NCBI GenBank assembly: GCA_025057975.1
Contig: JANWUV010000010.1
Coordinates: 1 to 64,000 of the forward strand
Origin: Chloracidobacterium sp.
GTDB taxonomy: Bacteria; Acidobacteriota; Blastocatellia; Chloracidobacteriales; Chloracidobacteriaceae
Direction of reading: 5' to 3'
DNA: 64,000 nt
Position 1 is the first letter of the stretch, and each line of letters starts with the position of its first letter. Below, in pieces: positions 437 to 10,638 of the stretch. Under the pieces are notes generated by a model, which was not told the DNA's origin, made no database searches, and worked only from the letters and a program-made list of their open reading frames with translations. A program made the translations under genes and the position numbers.

Positions 437-3175
437 TCACGGCATCCTCTTTGTTCGAGCGAGGCGTGCGCCGCGTACGACGCCGCGCCCGGCCGCTCCA
501 ATGCTGATTTCTTCCCAAAAGTCAGCCGAAGGCGCGGTCGTTTGCCGAATACTCATCGCCGCCGTATCCACCTCGGACGGAGCCACACCCAAGTACACTG
601 CCGTGGCGTAGCCGCGACTCCGGCTTTGTACGGCGTCGTTCGCCCGTACAGCCTCGGTCGCCGCCCGCCGCCCGGCGGCTCGCCATTCATCAGCGGATGG
701 CGGCCGCTTCTCCAACTCACGAACGGCACGCTCTACGGCTTCAACCAAGCGTGGCGCGTCATCCGGCCGACCTTCACCCACGACCAACAACTCGCCGCGT
801 TGCAAAGCCGGCGCAAACTGCACCGTAAAGTGCAAGGCTTCCGCTTCCAGCCGCCGCGCCAAGCAGGTTGCCAACACGGCCCAGCGGTGGTCGGCGTCAC
901 GTCCGCCGGGCGTGGCGAAGGCGAAAGCCACCACGTCGCGCGTCCCAGTTGTGCTCTCTTGAACCAGCGGCGACGCCGCCGGTTGCGCCACCCTCGCCTT
1001 AAGGGACGTATCGGTTTCGCGCCGGACAAAGCCTTCCGTGATGTCGCGCGTCACAAGCGTCGAACCCTGCGTCCCGCCGACGATGACGACAATTGGCAAC
1101 TGCCGCTGAATCGTGGCGGCGTACCACCGCTGGACGGCGGTTTCATCCAGCTTGCCGACGGTTCCGGCGACGCCAAGCGGTGGAAAACCATACGGATGCG
1201 AAGGAAACAGGCTGCGTCGCGCCAGCCAAGAGGCCAGTTCCACTGGGTTTGTCGCACGCGCCTTTTGCTCCGCCAGCAAGCGTTCACGTTCAGCCGACAC
1301 CACGCTTGCGTCAAAGTTCGGTCGCTCGACCAGCGTGACAAGACGACGCAGGGCAGGTTCGGCATGACGCGCTACGACGCACAGCTCAAAGCCGAAGAAA
1401 TCGCGTTCATTGACGATGTACAGCCGTCCACCGAGACGCTCCACCTCATCGAGCAGTCCGTCGGGCGCATACTTCACCGAACTGCGCAGCATGACACACA
1501 GCATGAGTTCCGTGATGCCGGCGTTTGTTTCGTCTTCGATGAAGCGTCCGCCTTGGAAGTACAGACCAATCGCTGTCAGCGGACGCGCCGGATCGGGACG
1601 AACCAGTACGCGCGGGCCGCGCAGCGTGGCATACTCGCGTACCGGTTCGGCCGGCGGCAGGACGACCAACCCGCCGTCTTTGGCGGCTTTGGGGCGCGGT
1701 TTCGTGGGAACAACGACCGTTTCCGGTGCGTCCGCCGTCTCGTTTGGGGCGATGTCGGCGACGAGCGTCTGCGGGACGAGCAAGCCGACTGTTTCAAAGA
1801 ACTTTTCGGGCGTGAAGGTGCGCAGCGGCGCCGTCGCCGCTTCGTACTCAAACACCACCAAGCGCGTCGCCGTCAGATGCTTGGCCGCGACGGCGCGCAC
1901 TTGTTCGGCGGTCAGGTTCTCCAGCCGGTCAAAATCATCGAGCCATTTGAGGACGCCGGGACCGAACTCGGCCGCCGCCAACTGTCGCGCCCATGCATCC
2001 ACACGGTCGCCGGCAGTTAGACGATCCAGTTCGAGTTGAGCTTTGGCGCGTTGGAGTTCGCCTTCGGAGAGTCGTTCACGGCGCAGGCGCTCAACGGCTT
2101 CGATGGTCAAAGCTTCCGCGCGGTCGAGGCGTTCGGGATGCACGCTCAGGCTGATGCACAGGGTGGTTTTTTGCGCGTCGGCGTCAACGCGCGCCGCTGC
2201 TTCAGATGCAATGCGGCGGTTTTCAACCAACGCTTCCGAAAGGCGCGCGCGGCGGCCGGAAGCAAGGGCGGCGCAGATGATTTCAAGAGCGACGCGCTCT
2301 TCGTCGCGCAGGGCGGGCAGCGCGTAGCCAATGTGCACCCATGTTTGTCCCTGCGGGCCGCGTTCGGCTTGGTAGCGGTCGCCGGTCGCCGCAGGCGTCG
2401 CCGCATCCTTTGCCTCCGGTTTCCAGTCGCCGGTCGCTTCGGCGACGGTTCGCAGCGTTTCGACGAGGTTGACATCGCCGGTGACAGCGACGACCGTCCG
2501 GCGCGGCGTCAGGTGGGCGGTGTGGAAAGCGCGGGCGGCGTCCAAGGTCACAGCTTTGAAATTTTCCTCGGAGAGCGACGCGCGCCGGCGGCCGGCTGCC
2601 AGCGCCGACCAAGCCGTACGGCTTACGTCCTCGGCGTGTGACTGGCAGCGGCTCCATGCGCGTGTCGCCTGCGCAACGCCGCCGCGCAGGCGCTCTTCGT
2701 CAAAGCCGGTACGCGCGACGGCGCGCAACAACAGACCGGCGACGCCGGCCGTCTGCGCCGTCGGAGCAACGACGGTCAAGGTCGTTGCGTGGGCGTCAAT
2801 CAGCGTATCCAGCGTAGCGCCGGTTGCAGCCAGTTCGGCGCGTTCGGCTTCGGAAAGGAGTCCGTAGGCGACGACCCATGCGACGCCGGGCGCGTCCAGC
2901 GGTTCGTCCGCTGCGCCGAAGCCGAGCCGGACGGCAACGGCCGTCAGTTCGGCGCTGTGCCGTTCGCCGCAAATGAGCCGCAGGCCGTTGCTGAAGCGGG
3001 TGACGGTGAGTTCGCCGCGCTGCGTTTGTTCCGCCAATCCACGGATGGGCGCGGCTTTGGGCGGCGTGACGGGCGGTGCGGGCGGGGGCGTCCGGCGGCG
3101 GGTTTGACCGGGCGACGGGACAGCAAGTAAAAGGAAGAGTAAAAACAGCAGGGAAAGATAACGAGCGTACGACAT
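437..3175 (-). CDS. Secreted M16 peptidase-like protein, zinc ligands lost
   Basis: This 912-residue protein starts with a signal peptide (a hydrophobic run at residues 7-22, then a Pro-rich linker). It contains two full M16 (pitrilysin/processing-peptidase) halves, roughly residues 55-470 and 510-900. In M16 enzymes the first half carries HxxEH, which binds zinc. Here the equivalent stretch reads GVAWVVAYGLL, so both histidines and the glutamate are gone. The second half (GITELMLCVML) lacks them as well. The protein should therefore fold as an M16 clam-shell but not cleave peptides by the usual mechanism. In two-chain M16 enzymes the inactive chain helps bind substrate, so a periplasmic binding or partner role is possible. 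It stands alone, divergent from hicB. The M16-like protein at 14175-15542 has lost its site too. Confidence 0.85.
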   Translation of the reverse strand: MSYARYLSLLFLLFLLLAVPSPGQTRRRTPPPAPPVTPPKAAPIRGLAEQTQRGELTVTRFSNGLRLICGERHSAELTAVAVRLGFGAADEPLDAPGVAWVVAYGLLSEAERAELAATGATLDTLIDAHATTLTVVAPTAQTAGVAGLLLRAVARTGFDEERLRGGVAQATRAWSRCQSHAEDVSRTAWSALAAGRRRASLSEENFKAVTLDAARAFHTAHLTPRRTVVAVTGDVNLVETLRTVAEATGDWKPEAKDAATPAATGDRYQAERGPQGQTWVHIGYALPALRDEERVALEIICAALASGRRARLSEALVENRRIASEAAARVDADAQKTTLCISLSVHPERLDRAEALTIEAVERLRRERLSEGELQRAKAQLELDRLTAGDRVDAWARQLAAAEFGPGVLKWLDDFDRLENLTAEQVRAVAAKHLTATRLVVFEYEAATAPLRTFTPEKFFETVGLLVPQTLVADIAPNETADAPETVVVPTKPRPKAAKDGGLVVLPPAEPVREYATLRGPRVLVRPDPARPLTAIGLYFQGGRFIEDETNAGITELMLCVMLRSSVKYAPDGLLDEVERLGGRLYIVNERDFFGFELCVVARHAEPALRRLVTLVERPNFDASVVSAERERLLAEQKARATNPVELASWLARRSLFPSHPYGFPPLGVAGTVGKLDETAVQRWYAATIQRQLPIVVIVGGTQGSTLVTRDITEGFVRRETDTSLKARVAQPAASPLVQESTTGTRDVVAFAFATPGGRDADHRWAVLATCLARRLEAEALHFTVQFAPALQRGELLVVGEGRPDDAPRLVEAVERAVRELEKRPPSADEWRAAGRRAATEAVRANDAVQSRSRGYATAVYLGVAPSEVDTAAMSIRQTTAPSADFWEEISIGAAGRGVVRGARLARTKRMP

Positions 3176-3437
3176 AGGCGTTTCCGGGCGCTCGCGCGGC
3201 GATACGCCGGGACAGACCGTAATCGTTTAGGCGTAGAGCGGCAAGCGCGCATTGTCGGGCGCGATGGTCAGGCGACGTTTGGAAAACGCCGGTTTTCAGT
3301 TGAGCCGCCTTGCGGCGCGCGGCACGGAAACTGTTTCTATTGATGAGTACTATCGGACTTGAGCGCCGGTTCAAACCTAACCGTCGTCGGCGCAAGCAAA
3401 GCGTGTCGCGGCTTAGAAATTGTTTGGGAGGTGAATC

Positions 3438-3647
3438 ATGAGGATTTTTCCGGCGGTGATTGAGAAATGTCATGACACGGGTTTGTATGTCGGCTACGTA
3501 CCGGGTTTCCCCGGCGCTCACACGCAAGCCGAAACGCTTGATGAGCTACAGAAAAATCTTCACGAAGTTATTGAGATGTTGCTTGAGGATGGCGAGCCAT
3601 CACTTGAAACTGAGTTTATCGGTACACAAATGGTGGTGATTGCCTGA
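3438..3647 (+). CDS. hicB: HicB-family antitoxin
   Basis: This 69-residue protein has the partial RNase H-like HicB fold: an N-terminal strand (IFPAVIEKC), a GLYVGYVPGFPGAHTQAETL core and a helix LDELQKNLHEVIEMLLED. HicB proteins bind and block the HicA mRNA interferase, and often repress their own promoter. This is the short form, without the C-terminal DNA-binding extension found in some HicBs. A strong Shine-Dalgarno, GGGAGGTGA, lies a few bases before the ATG. The toxin gene follows 2 bases after the stop, so the pair is surely co-transcribed. Antitoxin before toxin is one of the two orders known for this family. The DNA is richer in A+T than the flanking genes. Confidence 0.85.
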   Translation: MRIFPAVIEKCHDTGLYVGYVPGFPGAHTQAETLDELQKNLHEVIEMLLEDGEPSLETEFIGTQMVVIA

Positions 3648-3649
3648 CG

Positions 3650-3874
3650 ATGGGTAAGTATCCGGTCCTCAAGCCACAGGAAGTCGTAGTGATCTTGGAA
3701 AGACTTGGTTTTGTTGAAGTGCGCCAGAGAGGCTCACACAAACAGTATCGTCATCCAGATGGTCGGACGACAACCGTCCCTTTTCACAGAGGGCGCGATA
3801 TTTCACCGATTTTGCTACGGCAGATAGCCAAAGACCTTGGTCTCCCTATGGAAGAGTTGCTGAAGCACAGATGA
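3650..3874 (+). CDS. hicA: HicA-family mRNA interferase toxin
   Basis: This 74-residue protein is of typical HicA length. It has the double-stranded-RNA-binding-like fold: VLKPQEVVVILERLGF, then the signature RQRGSHKQYRHPDG with the histidine (GSH) that is catalytic in this family, then TTVPFHRGRDISPILLRQIAKDLG. HicA toxins cleave mRNA and tmRNA when not held by HicB. The gene is intact, starts 2 bases after hicB and is probably translated by coupling. It lies in the A+T-richer stretch with other toxin-antitoxin remains, which suits horizontal acquisition. Family assignment is firm; activity is inferred. Confidence 0.88.
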   Translation: MGKYPVLKPQEVVVILERLGFVEVRQRGSHKQYRHPDGRTTTVPFHRGRDISPILLRQIAKDLGLPMEELLKHR

Positions 3875-4122
3875 GCTACGTCGTCTTGATTTGGAATGCG
3901 CCTAGCATGCGCTTTCACCCGGCGTAGCGAGTTCGCGTCTTTGAGTGCAACAGTCACGCCGCTACAAGCCATGGACAACGTTGGCGGTGGCTCGCGCCGT
4001 GGGCGATGCTGGAACAGACCTGTGAGGAGGCGCTCATCAGGGGGCTTGGCAGGTTGAAGATTTTGACACTTAACAACTGTTGGGATGTTACGCTCAATAC
4101 CTTGGAAAGGAGTTTAGCGACG

Positions 4123-4539
4123 ATGCGCATCCAAAGTCCTGCGGCCTCAACTCTCGCCCTGCTTGTTCTCATCCTCCTGACCGGCGCTTTACTCGGCTGT
4201 CAAAGTCTCTTTCGGCTGACATCGGTTGACAAGCAAGAAAGTAAGAAGGTTCAGAGGTGGGAATACTGTCTCATGAGTCCCCCTTACCCCACACCGTACG
4301 GCTGGAAGGTGAACATCTACCTTGGCGGGAAAGATGAAACCATAGACAGTGACATGAGTAGCGTCGCCGCCCTCAACAAGCTCGGCGCTGACGGGTGGGA
4401 ACTGGTTGGGGTGAGCGACGAGGTCGTGAATCAGGGCAACCAAACTTTTACGAAGTTTCTGCTGAAACGCTCCATAGCCAGTGCGCTCCCTGACAAAAGC
4501 ACGCAGCAGGCTCACTTACAGGAGTTTTTTGAGCACTAG
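4123..4539 (+). CDS. Small lipoprotein, DUF4177-like
   Basis: The frame is open from 4006, but the ATG at 4123 is preferred. A GGAAAGGAG ribosome site lies 10 bases upstream, and the product then begins with a clean lipoprotein signal: MRIQ, a hydrophobic run, and lipobox LLTGALLGC. The mature part (about 115 residues) has VQRWEYCLM near the start and LNKLGADGWELVGV near the middle, the pattern of the small DUF4177 family of unknown function. It is expected to be lipid-anchored in the cell envelope. Its neighbours are toxin-antitoxin genes and remnants, so no role can be read from context. Composition matches the accessory island. Confidence 0.7.
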   Translation: MRIQSPAASTLALLVLILLTGALLGCQSLFRLTSVDKQESKKVQRWEYCLMSPPYPTPYGWKVNIYLGGKDETIDSDMSSVAALNKLGADGWELVGVSDEVVNQGNQTFTKFLLKRSIASALPDKSTQQAHLQEFFEH

Positions 4540-4617
4540 ACAGGTGCTCACTGCTGATGATGGGCATCAAGCCACTGCGAGCAAGGCCTAGCAGGGTACA
4601 GAGAAGGACTTAGGGCA

Positions 4618-4815
4618 ATGTCGTTTATTGGTCGGCAGCAAGTCGTAGAGCGTTGTACCAGCTTGAAGATAAACTCAGTGGCGATGTCAAACACCTTACG
4701 AAATCACTGACCAGAGTACAAGATGAGAGACGGTGACTGGCGAGCAATTTTTGAGATCATGGACGACGAGATTATCATGTACCGTATTTTCCACCGAAAG
4801 GAAGCCTATGAATGA
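4618..4815 (+). pseudogene. Broken RelE/ParE-like toxin gene
   Basis: Two fragments of a RelE-type toxin lie in different frames. From about 4623 one frame reads VYWSAASRRALYQLEDKL and then DVKHLTKSL, like the N-terminal half of RelE toxins. From about 4717 a second frame reads YKMRDGDWRAIFEI and ends IFHRKEAYE before TGA at 4813, matching the conserved RelE C-terminal half (YxxRxGDxRxxxxI ... HRxxxYx). A single-base frameshift near 4707-4716 separates them. The likely ATG at 4618 is in yet another frame relative to the first fragment, so there are probably two frameshifts. The toxin is almost certainly dead. Its stop overlaps the start of a decayed antitoxin. Confidence 0.65.
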
Positions 4816-4985
4816 TCATGAGTATTTATCCACAAGTCGTTGAGAAAGACAGGAGGAATTTGTTCAAGAGGTACTAGAGGGTTTAGATGATATTTGAATT
4901 TTGAGAGAAAGATAAGCTTCTGCCGTCTCTGAGCCGATTGGATCACTTGACGATATTCTTATCGAGCTAAGGATTGAGGCAAGTT
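4808..4985 (+). pseudogene. Decayed antitoxin partner of the RelE-like toxin
   Basis: An ATG at 4808 overlaps the toxin stop (ATGAATGA), the usual arrangement for a coupled toxin-antitoxin pair. Read in that one frame, the sequence gives NDHEYL, then EEFVQEVLEGLDDI, ILRER and VSEPIGSLDDILIEL, which resembles small acidic antitoxins. The frame is interrupted by three stops: TGA at 4841, TGA at 4895 and TAA at 4913. Each could come from one C-to-T change in a CGA or CAA codon. The 3' limit is uncertain, and the antitoxin family could not be settled. The remaining sequence up to 5159 shows nothing except two short copies of ACTATGCTTCG. Confidence 0.45.
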
Positions 4986-5159
4986 GGCTGAGCAAGGCAA
5001 TAAGCCTAAACTCAGCCGACTATGCTTCGCCATACCCTGAAGTAGCATCGAGCCAATACCCGCACTATGCTTCGGCTTCCTCCACCTATACTAGACACGG
5101 TGTAATCCGCCAGCTTAGCAGGTTCTCCTAACATCCACCCTAGACGACGGTTTAGATTT

Positions 5160-8100
5160 ATGGATCAGAAGGAATTCGGAAATAAACCAGAGGATATTCT
5201 TTCAGCTTGGATAGCATTGGAAGTTCTTTCGCCACTCACTTATAGATGCCCAGAAGACTTAGCTAATGGTATCCCTGAACGAGTGGCCGAGGTAAATCTG
5301 CAAGACTTAGCTAAGGATGACTCTGAACGAGTAACTGGGCATGAGAAACTCCCTTGGGAAAAAAATGAATCCCTTCGCAAAGGATACCGCCTTTATTATC
5401 AAATCATCCTTGGCTCAATCTGCATGGAAAAAGCAGTGAAGCGCCTTACTAGCAAGTACAGCGACACTCGTCCAGAGGAGCCAAGCGTGCGTGGCGAGGC
5501 GGCGCTTGCCATCGTTGTGGTTGATGATGAGGGACAACTTGCCGGACCATCAGCGGTTGTCATCTCCAGTTTTGGTTGGGGCTTGATGACCGCACTGGAA
5601 GGCAATCTAGAAGAACTTGCAAATTGGCCAGCTGTCGAACCAGAGTTAGTGAAACGAGTCAAAGATACGCTCCTCGGCATGGCGACAAAAGATAAAAACC
5701 AAGAGAAACCTGGAACTCTCTCGCTAACTGGAAAGGCGCTGCTGGCCGCTTATGAGGTGCTCGTCCGTGAACTTAAACTGCCGGAATATCTAGTCGAACC
5801 ACCAAAGTTTGCGATCCGTTCATATGTCAATCAAAAAGACCCAAACCCACCTGAGCCACTCTTGTGCAATAGTTTTTTCCTTGAGGATCTTGTGTTTGCT
5901 CGGTCGCTTTTCTCCTTTGGGAAGGCACCGAAGAATCTTCTGCGCTATCTTGGCGTCGAGCAGCCGCAGCAAAGAAAAGACTTGCTAAACGACAAAGACG
6001 CGCTGGAAGAGGCGGTGAGTCCCGGATGGACTCCGTTGGCTCGCTGGCCGGGGCCGGAACGCCACCCGCTTGTCTTACTTCAGCAGGCGGCGGTGAACTG
6101 TGCATTCCATGCAACAAGGATTGGTGGATTGTTGAGCGTCAATGGGCCGCCTGGAACCGGAAAGACAACATTACTTCGGGATATTGTCGCCGGGATTGTC
6201 ACGGCGAGGGCGGAAGCAATGATGCAGTTCGATAACCCAGAAGATGCATTTAAGTGCTCTGGTCAAAAGCTGCTGGTAGGCGGCAGTTGGATCGATCTTT
6301 ACCGATTGAACCAATCTCTGCGCGGCTTTGAGATGGTCGTTGCATCATCAAACAACAAAGCCGTCGAAAATGTGAGTGCGGAGCTTCCTTCGCTTGGCGC
6401 TATCGCGAAAGATGCATTGAACCTGCGCTACTTCAAAAAGTTGTCCGACAAGTTGTATCAACCCGAAACATGGGGGATGATTGCCGCCGTACTTGGCAAT
6501 ACGCAGAATCGCAGCCAATTCAAGGAAACTTTTTGGTGGGATGAAGACGAGGGGCTGCGAATATACCTACAGGCCGCCGTACGCTCGGTACAAGAAGTGG
6601 AAACAACTGACCCTCAAACAGGACAAGTCAAGAAACAGCGACCAGCCATTGTTGCAAGCGAAAACCCGCCACGTTCTCACGCTGAAGCCCTTTCTCGATG
6701 GAATAAGGCGCGAGAGCAGTTCCGCGAAGCAGTGAAGAAGAGTCACTGTTGGCATACGTGGTTGGAGAGTGTGCGTGCTGACCTGTTGACGCTGCCGAAA
6801 CTGGCTCAAGCGGAGGCTGCCGCTCAAGCTAGGCGTGACGACGCCGAGAAAGCAGTTCAAACCCTTGAGGAAGACTTGGCGACAGCGCGGGGAAAAGAGT
6901 ATGAATCGCTACGTCGGCTTCGCTACGCCGAACAGGAGCTTGAGGCCCATCGCTTGAAAAAGCCGGGACTTTGGGCGCGGTTATTCAGAACCCGCATCGC
7001 GCGAGAATGGTCGAATCAGTTGGCTGCTCTCCGTGCCGCTCACCATCGGGCGGAGTCCCGGCACAGAGAAACAGAGGCGGAGCGCCGGCGCGTTGAAAAT
7101 GAGCTTCAATGGGCAAGGCTTCAGCAGCAGAATGCCGAAAAGGACTTGGAAGACGCCCGCATACGGCATCAGCGAGTGCAGCAACGACTTACTGAGGCTG
7201 AACACCGCGAGGTTATCCTTGCCGATGACGATTTCTTCAAAGATGCTCACGACGCGCGCCATAAAAAGACGCCGTGGTTTCCTCGAGAAGCCCAGCGCCT
7301 GCGTGACGAGGTTTTTATCGCTGCAATGGCGGTGCACCGCGCCTTCATTGATGCGGCCGCCAGGCCCTTGCGTCACAACCTCGGCGCCTTGATGGATGTC
7401 TTCATGACGCAGACATTACTGGGTGCCGAGAAACAAAAGTTGCTGCCCGACCTGTGGGCTTCGCTTTTTCTCGTGGTACCGTTGGTATCGACAACTTTTG
7501 CCTCCTTCAACCGAATGTTGGGCAAGCTGCCTCTTGAAAGCCTTGGCTGGCTGATTGTAGACGAAGCCGGACAGTCGTTACCGCAGGCCGCCGTGGGTGC
7601 GCTCCTGCGAACTCGCCGCGCCGTCATCGTCGGCGACCCGATGCAGATTGAGCCGGTGGTTGTGTTGCCTGACACGTTGACAAACACCATATGTCATCGT
7701 TTTGATGTAGACCCTGACCGCTATGCCCCTCCACGGGCTTCGGTACAGACGCTTGCTGACGCTGCCTCTGAATACACCGGCACGTTCGAAGGTAAATACG
7801 GCAGTCGGCAGGTTGGCGTGCCGTTGCTGGTGCATCGGCGATGTTCCAATCCAATGTTCACAATCGCCAATAAAATAGCCTACGCCAACCAGATGGTGTT
7901 TGCGAAATCGCCAAGTCCTTCTTCAATCAAAAATGTACTTGGTGATTCTAAGTGGATTCACGTCGAAGGCAGCGGCGAAGACAAGTGGTGCCCAGCAGAA
8001 GGCGACGAGGTGCTGCGCTTGCTTGAGGAGCTAGCCCAAGCTGAGGCAAGCCACGACCTCTATATCATTACGCCGTTTGTCATCGTTGCAGAAAAACTTC

Positions 8101-8459
8101 GCCAAATGATACGTAAAAGCAAGGTTCTCGAAGGCTGGATTAATGACAATTGGATCAACAAACGAGTTGGTACCGTACACACAGCGCAAGGTCGTGAAGC
8201 GGGAGCGGTGATTCTCGTTTTGGGTGCGCCTCTCCAAGATCAAAAGGGCGCTCGTGATTGGGCCGGCAACCGTCCAAACTTGCTGAATGTGGCTGTTACC
8301 CGCGCAAAGGAAGTCATTTACGTCGTCGGTAATTGGGAGCTTTGGTGTGAGGCTGGTTGTTTCAAAGAGCTTGACAGTGCTTTGCCAAAACTTTGCCGTC
8401 TTTACGGCGCTTCGGCTTTAGAAACGGTGACAACCAGCGTAGTGAGCAACACAGCGTGA
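5160..8459 (+). CDS. Large superfamily 1 (Upf1/DNA2-like) helicase
   Basis: This 1099-residue protein is an ATP-driven SF1B helicase or translocase. Visible motifs are Walker A GPPGTGKT at 329-336, motif Ia VVASSNNKAVENV, Walker B DEAGQ at 801-805, motif III GDPMQIEP from 825, motif V GTVHTAQGREA from 1004, and motif VI NVAVTRAKE from 1043. Between Ia and II lies a long charged coiled coil (about 545-690), probably a stalk. The first 320 residues match no domain I can name. No nuclease motif is visible at the C-terminus. It is single, with no partner gene within 400 bases, and richer in A+T than the chromosome around it. Related stand-alone helicases occur in mobile and defence regions, but an anti-phage role is only inference; RNA or DNA repair is equally possible. 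Confidence 0.85.
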   Translation: MDQKEFGNKPEDILSAWIALEVLSPLTYRCPEDLANGIPERVAEVNLQDLAKDDSERVTGHEKLPWEKNESLRKGYRLYYQIILGSICMEKAVKRLTSKYSDTRPEEPSVRGEAALAIVVVDDEGQLAGPSAVVISSFGWGLMTALEGNLEELANWPAVEPELVKRVKDTLLGMATKDKNQEKPGTLSLTGKALLAAYEVLVRELKLPEYLVEPPKFAIRSYVNQKDPNPPEPLLCNSFFLEDLVFARSLFSFGKAPKNLLRYLGVEQPQQRKDLLNDKDALEEAVSPGWTPLARWPGPERHPLVLLQQAAVNCAFHATRIGGLLSVNGPPGTGKTTLLRDIVAGIVTARAEAMMQFDNPEDAFKCSGQKLLVGGSWIDLYRLNQSLRGFEMVVASSNNKAVENVSAELPSLGAIAKDALNLRYFKKLSDKLYQPETWGMIAAVLGNTQNRSQFKETFWWDEDEGLRIYLQAAVRSVQEVETTDPQTGQVKKQRPAIVASENPPRSHAEALSRWNKAREQFREAVKKSHCWHTWLESVRADLLTLPKLAQAEAAAQARRDDAEKAVQTLEEDLATARGKEYESLRRLRYAEQELEAHRLKKPGLWARLFRTRIAREWSNQLAALRAAHHRAESRHRETEAERRRVENELQWARLQQQNAEKDLEDARIRHQRVQQRLTEAEHREVILADDDFFKDAHDARHKKTPWFPREAQRLRDEVFIAAMAVHRAFIDAAARPLRHNLGALMDVFMTQTLLGAEKQKLLPDLWASLFLVVPLVSTTFASFNRMLGKLPLESLGWLIVDEAGQSLPQAAVGALLRTRRAVIVGDPMQIEPVVVLPDTLTNTICHRFDVDPDRYAPPRASVQTLADAASEYTGTFEGKYGSRQVGVPLLVHRRCSNPMFTIANKIAYANQMVFAKSPSPSSIKNVLGDSKWIHVEGSGEDKWCPAEGDEVLRLLEELAQAEASHDLYIITPFVIVAEKLRQMIRKSKVLEGWINDNWINKRVGTVHTAQGREAGAVILVLGAPLQDQKGARDWAGNRPNLLNVAVTRAKEVIYVVGNWELWCEAGCFKELDSALPKLCRLYGASALETVTTSVVSNTA

Positions 8460-8893
8460 GCGAACGACGTGTCGCTGTTCTACGCCGGGTTCCTATGGCT
8501 CGGCTGAAATCTTCCCACCCTGAGAGGTACAGGGCAGCGAAACTGATAATTTGGGTGTGGGCTTTCCGGCTCGACTGACTTTATTTAGCTTTCTGGGCCA
8601 GTGTAGCGGCAGCCCGCGATTTGACGCGCGGCAGCGTTCCGCGCCGGACACTTCCAAATTGCCTTTTACATTGCCCTGTTACGAGGAACTGCCACGCCTT
8701 GCGGCGCGTGGCGTCAAGCCGCAAGGCAGGAAAGCGGCGGAGCGCCGCCGCACTCCAAACTGCTGACACGATTCGACCGGGGCATTGCTACACTTACTCG
8801 GAAGCTGTTCTAGTCAGCGCGCCTTTGGAGAGTCGCCTTTCGCCGCGATCTAAACCTTAGCCGACGCCACGCCTTTACGGATACGGAAGCGGA
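8460..8893. other. Intergenic stretch holding repeat copy B
   Basis: No gene is supported between the helicase stop and the end of pstB. Short open frames here are Arg-rich and overlap on both strands. The middle holds the hairpin repeat at 8626-8760. The stretch marks the right edge of the A+T-richer island, with composition returning to G+C-rich within it. Confidence 0.6.
8626..8760 (+). repeat. Dispersed hairpin repeat, copy B
   Basis: This copy has the same three blocks in the same order as 235-336. It forms two strong hairpins: GCCACGCC-TTGCG-GGCGTGGC-type pairing around 8691-8712, and GCGGCG-GAG-CGCCGC at 8734-8748. Copies A and B bracket the first M16-like gene and the whole accessory island. 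A fragment at 3304-3323 sits between them at the left edge of the island. Confidence 0.5.
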
Positions 8894-9715
8894 CTAACCA
8901 AATCGGCCGGCGAGGTAGTCCTCCGTCCGTTTCTGGGACGGCGCATTGAACAACACTTCCGTCGGCCCAAACTCGACCAGTTCACCCAAGTACATAAACG
9001 CCGTGAACTCCGCTACGCGCGCCGCCTGCTGCAAGTTGTGCGTCACGATCAGCGCCGTCACCTGCGACTTGAGACGCCCCAGCAGCGCCTCAATACTCGC
9101 CGTCGCCAGCGGATCAAGCGCCGAAGTCGGTTCGTCAAACAGCAACAACTCCGGCTCCGTCGCCAGCGCCCGCGCAATACACAAACGCTGCTGCTGCCCG
9201 CCCGACAGCGCATAGGCCGAATCGTCCAGCCGATCCTTGACCTCATCCCATAGCGCAGCGTCCCGAAGTGCGCGTTCCACCCGTCCCTCCAGCTCGCTCC
9301 TGCTGCGGACGCCGCGCAAACGAAGCCCGTAGGCGACGTTCTCAAAGACCGACTTCGGGAATGGATTCGGCTTCTGAAAAACCATCCCAATCCGCATCCG
9401 TACCTCAATCGGGTCGGTCTCAGGGGCCAGCAGGTTGATGTCGTCGGGATAAAGTCGAATTTCGCCCGCATACCGATGGTTGGGGTACAGGTCATGCATG
9501 CGATTGAAGCAGCGCAGCAACGTACTCTTGCCGCACCCGGAAGGCCCGATGAGCGCCGTCGCACGATAGGCGTAAACCGGCAGGTTAACCTCATGCAGCG
9601 CCGCCTTCTCACCGTAGAAAAAACTCAAACCGCGCGCTTCCGCCTTGAGCGCCAACTGGTCGGTGACGCCATCTGGCTGACGCCCGTTGGAACCGGCGGC
9701 CATAGTCTTGGTCAT
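8894..9715 (-). CDS. pstB: Phosphate ABC transporter ATP-binding protein PstB
   Basis: PstB is the ATPase that powers phosphate import through PstC and PstA. The sequence shows Walker [10 protein letters not shown], a Q-loop in [18 protein letters not shown] (the PNPFPKS stretch is typical of PstB), signature LSGGQQQRL, Walker [14 protein letters not shown] and the H-loop histidine in VTHNLQQA. It is the last gene of pstS-pstC-pstA-pstB. A GTG at 9727 would overlap the pstA stop. The ATG at 9715 is chosen here because GGAG lies just before it, although the spacing is short. No phoU follows. Confidence 0.93.
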
Positions 9716-9720
9716 CGCTC

Positions 9721-10638
9721 CTACCACTGAAGCCGCCGCCGCAGCCGATAGCGCAGCCCGATGGCGACGGCGTTCATCACAACGGTCAAAAACGTCAGCG
9801 TCAACGCCGCCGCCGCCGCGTTGGCGCGAAAGTCGGCTCTGGGGCGCGAAGTCCAGTCAAACGTCACAATCGGCAGCGCCGTAAACGGCGACCACAGCCA
9901 GTCGAAGGACAAAAAAGGCGCTTCGGACGAAACCGGCGACGGCGGTAGAAAAGCAATAAACGTCACCGCTCCAATCGTCACCAATGGAGCGGTTTCCCCG
10001 ATCGCCCGCGACAAGCCGATAATGACCCCGGTGAGGACGCCCGGCAGCGCCGCCGGCAACACATGACGCCAAATGGTTTGCCAGCGCGTCGCCCCAACCG
10101 CGTACGAAGCTTCTCGAATTGCGTTGGGCACCGTCCGAATAGCTTCCCGCGTCGCCACGACGACAATCGGCAAAATCAGCAGTCCCAGCGTCAGTCCGGC
10201 GGTCAGGACGCTCGCCCCAAAACCCAACAGGCGAACAAACAGCCCCAACGCTAGCAGCCCATAAACAATCGAAGGCACGCCCGCCAAGTTGACAATGTTG
10301 GTCTCAATCAAGGCGGTCAGACGGTTGGGACGCGCGTACTCTTCAAGATACACCCCAGCCGCCACGCCCAGTGGGACGGCGACGGCGGCCGTGACGACCA
10401 TCACCACAAACGTCCCCACCCAAGCCGCCAGAATGCCCGCTCGTTCAGCCCGCCGTGAGGCAAACGTCAGAAAGAAATCCGGCTGCAACCGCTCCCAGCC
10501 GGTTTGCAGCGTTCCGGCGAAAAGGCCGACAAAGACCACCGCCAGTGCGCCCAACAACAGCCAAGCGACCAGCAGAAAGGCGCGCTCATACTGTTTGGCG
10601 CGCTGAATCCGCGCCGCAAGTCGCTCACGGTTTGTCAT
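9721..10638 (-). CDS. pstA: Phosphate ABC transporter permease PstA
   Basis: This 305-residue inner-membrane permease has about six hydrophobic segments. It carries the binding-protein-dependent transport loop that contacts the ATPase ([20 protein letters not shown], about residues 175-195) and the conserved [12 protein letters not shown] motif of PstA. It forms the phosphate channel with PstC. Its start overlaps the pstC stop by 4 bases (ATGA), a sign of translational coupling. The N-terminus is cytoplasmic and rich in basic residues. Confidence 0.92.

Follow-up and report, generated by a model that had tools for sequence, protein, structure and literature searches.

A 64,000-nucleotide stretch of Chloracidobacterium sp. 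DNA (contig JANWUV010000010.1, referred to below as the window) carries a gene for a large UPF1-like helicase of superfamily 1 (SF1). UPF1-like helicases power RNA surveillance in eukaryotic cells and also have a part in several defence systems of bacteria. We interpret the window's protein as a mobile, stand-alone helicase whose most likely role, judged from sequence, is to protect the host from invasion by phages or other nucleic acid, a reading to which we assign a probability of about 0.6. We favour defence because relatives of the gene often sit near Shango, Gabija, Mrr nuclease and other defence genes, a context that makes a defence role probable. The family is best read as a new stand-alone variant of the UPF1-like defence helicases known from Mokosh and, as CnuH, from CoCoNuT.

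The helicase displays a complete set of SF1 motifs, with UPF1-type signatures at motifs II and III. By the usual motif names, these comprise Q308 of the Q motif, Walker A GPPGTGKT (residues 329-336), motif II DEAGQ (801), motif III GDPMQIEP (825), motif V TVHTAQGRE (1005) and motif VI NVAVTRAK (1043). Across an aligned set of 80 proteins, made up of the window helicase and 79 relatives, K335, D801, E802, Q829, R894 and Q308 are identical throughout (80/80), and T336, Q1010 and R1048 are kept in 77 to 79. Pfam matched helicase and P-loop families only, four of them above cut-off: AAA_11 (783-835), AAA_12 (940-1058), Viral_helicase1 and AAA_19. No missing N-terminal extension was seen by eye in another upstream frame across 4500-5220, and the protein is the sole match to its family within its own genome. 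The original prediction, made from the letters of the window, had named a UPF1-like helicase with intact SF1 motifs and no nuclease motif, and both statements hold. The C-terminal tail runs for 49 residues past motif VI without a nuclease motif, no nuclease domain was matched in Pfam, NCBIfam or PADLOC, and the HxKxxxxD (HKD) motif of PLD domains occurs in 0/80 tails of the aligned proteins, which measure 0 to 58 residues.

Structure prediction returned a confident model of the whole protein. Built from 80 sequences, the AlphaFold2 model of the full helicase reached a mean predicted local distance difference test (pLDDT) score of 92.1 and a predicted template modelling (pTM) score of 0.88. Comparison of the core with 948 chains, ranked beforehand by Foldseek and then aligned, revealed matches to UPF1, IGHMBP2 and Sen1 (Z 20-21.6, root-mean-square deviation 3.3-6.7, 432-478 aligned residues), and the motor is modelled with a UPF1-type two-RecA fold. 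The coiled coil previously proposed between the motor motifs, at about 150 residues, appears in the model as a slightly longer stalk of 176 residues, with helices at 507-598 and 612-682. UPF1 itself carries a small 1C insertion, a hairpin, between Walker A and motif II.

The first ~320 residues, for which the original prediction could name no domain, still match nothing convincingly after structure prediction and profile search. Modelled alone with AlphaFold2 from 78 sequences, residues 1-321 gave a confident fold (pLDDT 89.7, pTM 0.85). As to a 1B beta-barrel ahead of Walker A, strands are present at 76-83, 86-88, 113-115, 117-122, 133-135 and 217-224, but no fold match was convincing. Pfam has no family for residues 1-300 at E <= 1. 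For residues 1-321, the best PDB match by sequence profile was a chance match to a terpene synthase (E 0.49), and the best PDB fold matches were at E 0.54 by Foldseek and at Z 3.6 over 34 residues by VIA-align; the viral fold library gave E 0.13 at best, which is not convincing. These fold searches covered the PDB and viral libraries, so that a fold described elsewhere may have escaped them. No housekeeping family matched the N-terminal part in these searches. Within the family the domain is well kept: S238 is found in 80/80 aligned proteins, D243 in 78/80, and E21 and W66 in 73/80, with the remainder nearly all gaps. It is present in a distant clade too (hhalign between clades, E 2e-55).

Many relatives carry an additional N-terminal module of ~50 residues. 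Its strict pattern, RPYFxxSIxxLExLF...ELxHRxTxRAxxL, is found in at least 40 of 50 close relatives, among them L037, L051 and L071, and the module is absent from the window copy. A 57-aa N-terminal piece of L051 matches a protein from a Sphingomonas plasmid at its very start (47% over 47 aa, E 5e-4), and this protein combines DUF4011 with AAA_11. From this likeness, defence helicases may share the module as an adaptor.

A survey of gene neighbourhoods, proposed together with the original prediction, favours defence for the relatives through their proximity to Shango, Gabija and Mrr genes. Shango lies close to the helicase at six loci (L035, L057, L064, L071, L078 and L131), hosted by Azospirillum, Pseudoxanthomonas, a Verrucomicrobiales genome, Citrobacter, Gluconacetobacter and E. 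coli. SngB was matched at E <= 6.7e-154 at each of the six, with SngA and SngC tested at L057 only. Distances between Shango and the helicase range from under 150 bp (L035, L057, L078) to about 5 kb (L071), and the loci span at least five lineages; this proximity may exceed what shared residence in islands would produce. Shango-like genes, recognized by clustering only, lie near L027 and L104 as well. Gabija GajA is near the helicase in L027 (with GajB), L098 and L107. An Mrr-type nuclease of 536-567 aa, labelled type IV by PADLOC, lies directly downstream of the helicase at three plasmid loci (L023, L030 and L031). The E. coli H6 island holds annotated tyrosine recombinases and Hachiman HamA in addition to Shango. 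Among the near neighbours, the 25 PADLOC families shown include an oligonucleotide cyclase, SAVED effectors, type I restriction-modification, AbiE and Shango-type IetA/Sng; Pfam found five phage integrases in the same set and Mrr_cat in 3/148.

At E <= 1e-10, we counted 210 PADLOC families in 148 near neighbours from 48 loci versus 24 in 115 far neighbours, taken at 6 kb or more from 44 of the same loci, figures that overstate the contrast because PADLOC holds many models per protein. Other observations also weigh against a defence role. The far neighbours hold defence genes too, and the near ones include ordinary genes such as LysR regulators and serine hydroxymethyltransferase (SHMT). The loci are partly dependent, with close kin among both the Shango loci (L071 and L131, from Citrobacter and E. 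coli) and the Mrr loci (L030 and L031). No neighbouring gene is constant across loci, and no conserved operon partner was found among those of the relatives. Certain copies on plasmids, including two distant relatives, are found amid genes for replication or transfer, and the accessory neighbours of the window copy itself are HicBA alone. Finally, the mechanism outlined below draws its steps from analogy with UPF1.

In a defence role, the motor would, like UPF1, move 5'-to-3' along single-stranded RNA or DNA. Recognition, either of invading nucleic acid or of a partner specific to infection, would fall to the N-terminal domain and stalk, and ATP-driven translocation could strip or remodel transcription, replication or R-loop intermediates of the invader. 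A nuclease, where needed, may act in trans, supplied by a host enzyme or by a neighbour that only some loci have, for instance the Mrr-type enzyme of the three plasmid loci; no dedicated partner for the helicase was found in the window. Any single step of this scheme merits clearly less confidence than the defence reading itself. Tentatively, we propose a new family that gives immunity from a single gene: a UPF1-like motor lacking an in-protein nuclease would stop invaders, the undescribed N-terminal fold and the stalk would serve as the sensor, and the ~50-aa module may plug into different partners.

Relatives of the helicase, about 39-64% identical to it and matching over nearly full length, are spread across Nitrospirota, Pseudomonadota, Acidobacteriota and other hosts, where they reside on chromosomes, plasmids and integrative elements. 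An alignment-based scan of genome contigs confirmed at least 442 relatives, the best 80 of which were used; the same scan with the single window protein as query gave no match. Viral contigs yielded 14 relatives, with two true Mokosh type II proteins (L125 and L126) among these. In a tree of 95 rows, built by a quick method with SH-aLRT support only, the window protein groups first with three Nitrospira sequences (64% identity, support 100) and next with one from Bryobacteraceae (99). Two acidobacterial relatives from the phylum search (L002 and L003) fall elsewhere, among Pseudomonadota.

The helicase gene is accessory and not core, because matches among genomes of the genus are patchy: the family model matches 3/7, namely the window's own, G123 and G397, the last only marginally and within part of the coiled coil. 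Across the phylum, 26/396 genomes match at all, the window's included, and two others exceed 700 bits. Close homologues as fixed single-copy genes in core positions, an observation that would have counted against the original prediction, did not appear. In G123 there are two relatives, one long and open, the other broken into pieces with one stop. This broken copy (G123:C2:875243-878078, minus strand) is on a different contig from the long open one. Among plasmids, 736 of 72,556 records match, 550 of them from Klebsiella, and in 13 a single place covers at least 80% of the query; the lower 21 of the 40 plasmid rows listed are Klebsiella helicases that match residues 224-1078 only. Megablast with the Klebsiella relative L027 found DNA kin in 2/5426 E. 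coli genomes, both times on the chromosome, a count that covers a close lineage only. The helicase is horizontally mobile, given the Nitrospira kinship, the plasmid copies, the rare E. coli kin and the adjacency of the flanking genes in two genus relatives.

That adjacency defines the genomic site. The helicase sits in an AT-rich accessory block. On one side of it is a gene for an M16 peptidase, on the other a gene for an ABC-transporter ATPase, presumably pstB, which is followed by a transport permease gene (Pfam). The gap between the two flanking genes measures 5718 bp in the window versus about 150 bp in the genus relatives G123 and G165. In G096 the same junction spans about 1.9 kb and carries a 536-aa AAA ATPase instead (L142:2957-4567); because of this different insert, the junction may be an insertion hotspot. 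Elsewhere in the genus, the flanking genes are 31.6 kb apart in G396, with content that looks ordinary by eye, and on different contigs in G397; G398 has no ATPase match above 39% identity among the matches listed. The A+T-richer island of the original prediction is borne out by composition: the block has 53.0% GC versus 60.8% in the remaining window, and all 494 overlapping block-length stretches from the rest of the window have higher values (minimum 57.0%). GC at third codon positions (GC3) is 0.54 in the helicase gene versus 0.71-0.74 in the flanking genes.

The larger genes between 437 and 9727 are those for the M16 peptidase, HicB, HicA, a 177-aa open reading frame (ORF), the helicase and the ABC-transporter ATPase. 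HicB and HicA, recognized by Pfam, account for the toxin-antitoxin neighbours that had been pointed out earlier. What lies at 4630-4990 is apparently a decayed second toxin-antitoxin pair, to judge by its translation, and no tool gave a match there. PADLOC had no match for the three window neighbours tested, the interval 8460-8893 holds short ORFs only, with no downstream nuclease gene, and Rfam found nothing at gathering scores across 3000-9900. An 18-nt direct repeat, with copies that are 94% identical, stands at both sides of the block and is the sole one of five two-copy repeat families to bracket it. Its pattern has 2 matches in the window versus 0.14 expected, and just two copies genome-wide at up to 1 mismatch versus 4 for the reversed control pattern; as a block boundary the repeat is suggestive only.

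Table 1 Features of the helicase gene and its accessory block, in window coordinates.
Feature	Position	Strand	Basis
UPF1-like SF1 helicase gene	5160..8459	+	ORF, ATG start, 1099 aa; Pfam AAA_11/AAA_12; core fold matches UPF1
N-terminal domain, residues 1-300	5160..6059	+	AlphaFold2 of residues 1-321; no convincing fold match
Q motif and Walker A, residues 308-337	6081..6170	+	Motif reading; conservation in alignment
Coiled-coil stalk, residues 507-682, two helices between Walker A and motif II	6678..7205	+	AlphaFold2
Motifs II to VI, residues 801-1050	7560..8309	+	Motif reading; conservation in alignment
AT-rich accessory block	3176..8893	.	Between M16 peptidase gene and ABC-transporter ATPase gene (Pfam); GC
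HicB-like antitoxin	3438..3647	+	Pfam UPF0150 and HicB_lk_antitox
HicA toxin	3650..3874	+	Pfam HicA_toxin, E 1.2e-21
Small ORF, 177 aa, lipoprotein-like by eye	4006..4539	+	Weak DUF4177/Sp36 match, below both curated cut-offs
Out-of-frame remnants resembling RelE toxin and Phd-type antitoxin	4630..4990	+	Three-frame translation, by eye
18-nt direct repeat, left copy	3306..3323	+	Suggestive only
18-nt direct repeat, right copy	8695..8712	+	Suggestive only

Several other explanations could account for such a gene. It is unlikely that the protein is an accessory helicase of mobile elements, engaged in their replication, transfer or maintenance and no defence factor. Copies do adjoin repABC and type IV secretion system (T4SS) genes, tra genes and a relaxase, and 615 of the 736 matching plasmid records are predicted to be conjugative, these mostly holding distant relatives; however, many copies lie on genome contigs among varied neighbours that include genes of unrelated defence systems, and the window copy is accompanied by the M16 peptidase, HicBA and ABC-transporter genes. 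In a very improbable account the helicase brings the host no benefit, being selfish or neutral cargo on an AT-rich island that HicBA maintains. HicBA and the toxin-antitoxin-like remnants indeed share its block, but the checked motif residues are kept in at least 77/80 proteins from several phyla and S238 in all 80, and conservation so wide requires selection. Little more credible is descent from a multi-gene CoCoNuT-like system, the helicase being a CnuH-like subunit whose nuclease (CnuE) and GTPase (CnuB/CnuC) were lost or outsourced. PMC11090510 describes CnuH as a UPF1-like helicase in which a coiled coil is inserted after Walker A and whose gene typically has a wHTH-nuclease gene downstream, an arrangement to which the three loci with a downstream Mrr nuclease lend some colour. 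Against this, the window block has no room for an McrB-like GTPase gene, and no partner recurs across loci.

The helicase could also belong to Mokosh type II in a degenerate form or one without PLD, which we regard as quite improbable. MkoC is its best PADLOC model (225 bits, E 3.7e-67), with window residues 301-1062 aligning to profile positions 246-947 of 1136, and in both a long interval separates Walker A from motif II (472 residues in the window helicase, 403 in the MkoC-type protein L126). We treated PLD as defining for Mokosh because PMC10952713 lists a PLD-like domain for types I and II. This criterion is imperfect, because a protein from a viral contig (L127:2254-5274) is MkoC-like, at 932 bits over profile positions 5-967 of 1136, and has no PLD domain by Pfam. 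However, L127 has the MkoC N-terminus, which the window family does not detectably share, and scores four times as high as the window helicase, while L125 and L126 match the MkoC profile end to end at 1227 and 1466 bits, L126 carrying PLDc_2. A recent loss of PLD is also at odds with the family, because all 80 aligned proteins lack HKD and end within 58 residues of motif VI. Profile comparison by hhalign of the N-terminal domain with four MkoC N-termini, a small sample, gave no sign that the domain is part of MkoC (E 0.48, 0.049 and 0.054). Mokosh membership was rejected on the 0/80 PLD count and on 225 bits versus 932-1466 for the three MkoC-like proteins.

A stand-alone helicase of host defence, our preferred reading, would be instructive in several ways. 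Bacterial defence systems with UPF1-like helicases pair the motor with nucleases, as far as the literature consulted describes them. If the reading is true, a widespread relative without a nuclease or a constant partner would mean that a motor and a sensor can be enough, or that the effector acts in trans. A structure of the N-terminal domain would be informative because its confident model found no solved counterpart, and a single-gene family is open to a clear test. The original prediction of an undescribed system stands in part: the N-terminal domain matched no known fold, but the motor and its coiled-coil insertion are known from Mokosh and CnuH. We found no description of a stand-alone family of this kind in the literature searched, which took in part of the largest result lists and few subscription journals, and the term UPF1 has no match in the available text of PMC12839542.

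Compared with known systems, the family combines familiar parts in its own way. It shares a superfamily with the Hhe-type DUF4011 SF1 helicases, to which it gave weak matches only (E 0.0064 in PADLOC, and E 0.00068); unlike them, the window helicase has no DUF4011 domain by Pfam, nor was a nuclease found in it, whereas Hhe carries a Vsr nuclease. With UPF1, IGHMBP2 and Sen1 it has the helicase core in common, but its stalk is much longer than the 1C hairpin of UPF1, and no match was found for residues 1-321 alone. Hachiman has been modelled as a sensor helicase plus a nuclease (PMC12278908). Like Mokosh type II, the family consists of a single large protein with a UPF1-like motor; unlike it, there is no C-terminal PLD nuclease, and the N-terminal domain is not detectably related to that of MkoC. 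Confusion with Mokosh type II is nevertheless possible because MkoC is the family's best PADLOC match. In contrast to CoCoNuT types II and III, no CnuB/CnuC-type GTPase gene was found in the window block or among the larger genes from 437 to 9727, and no CnuE-like nuclease was found in the window. Among the PDB matches for residues 1-321, none was to the SmpB-like OB, RNase-toxin-like or wHTH domains of the CnuH type, a result that excludes nothing. With its partner genes missing here, CnuH as presented in PMC11090510 is the nearest published anatomy that we encountered, sharing with the window family a UPF1-like SF1 helicase that bears a coiled-coil insertion after Walker A.

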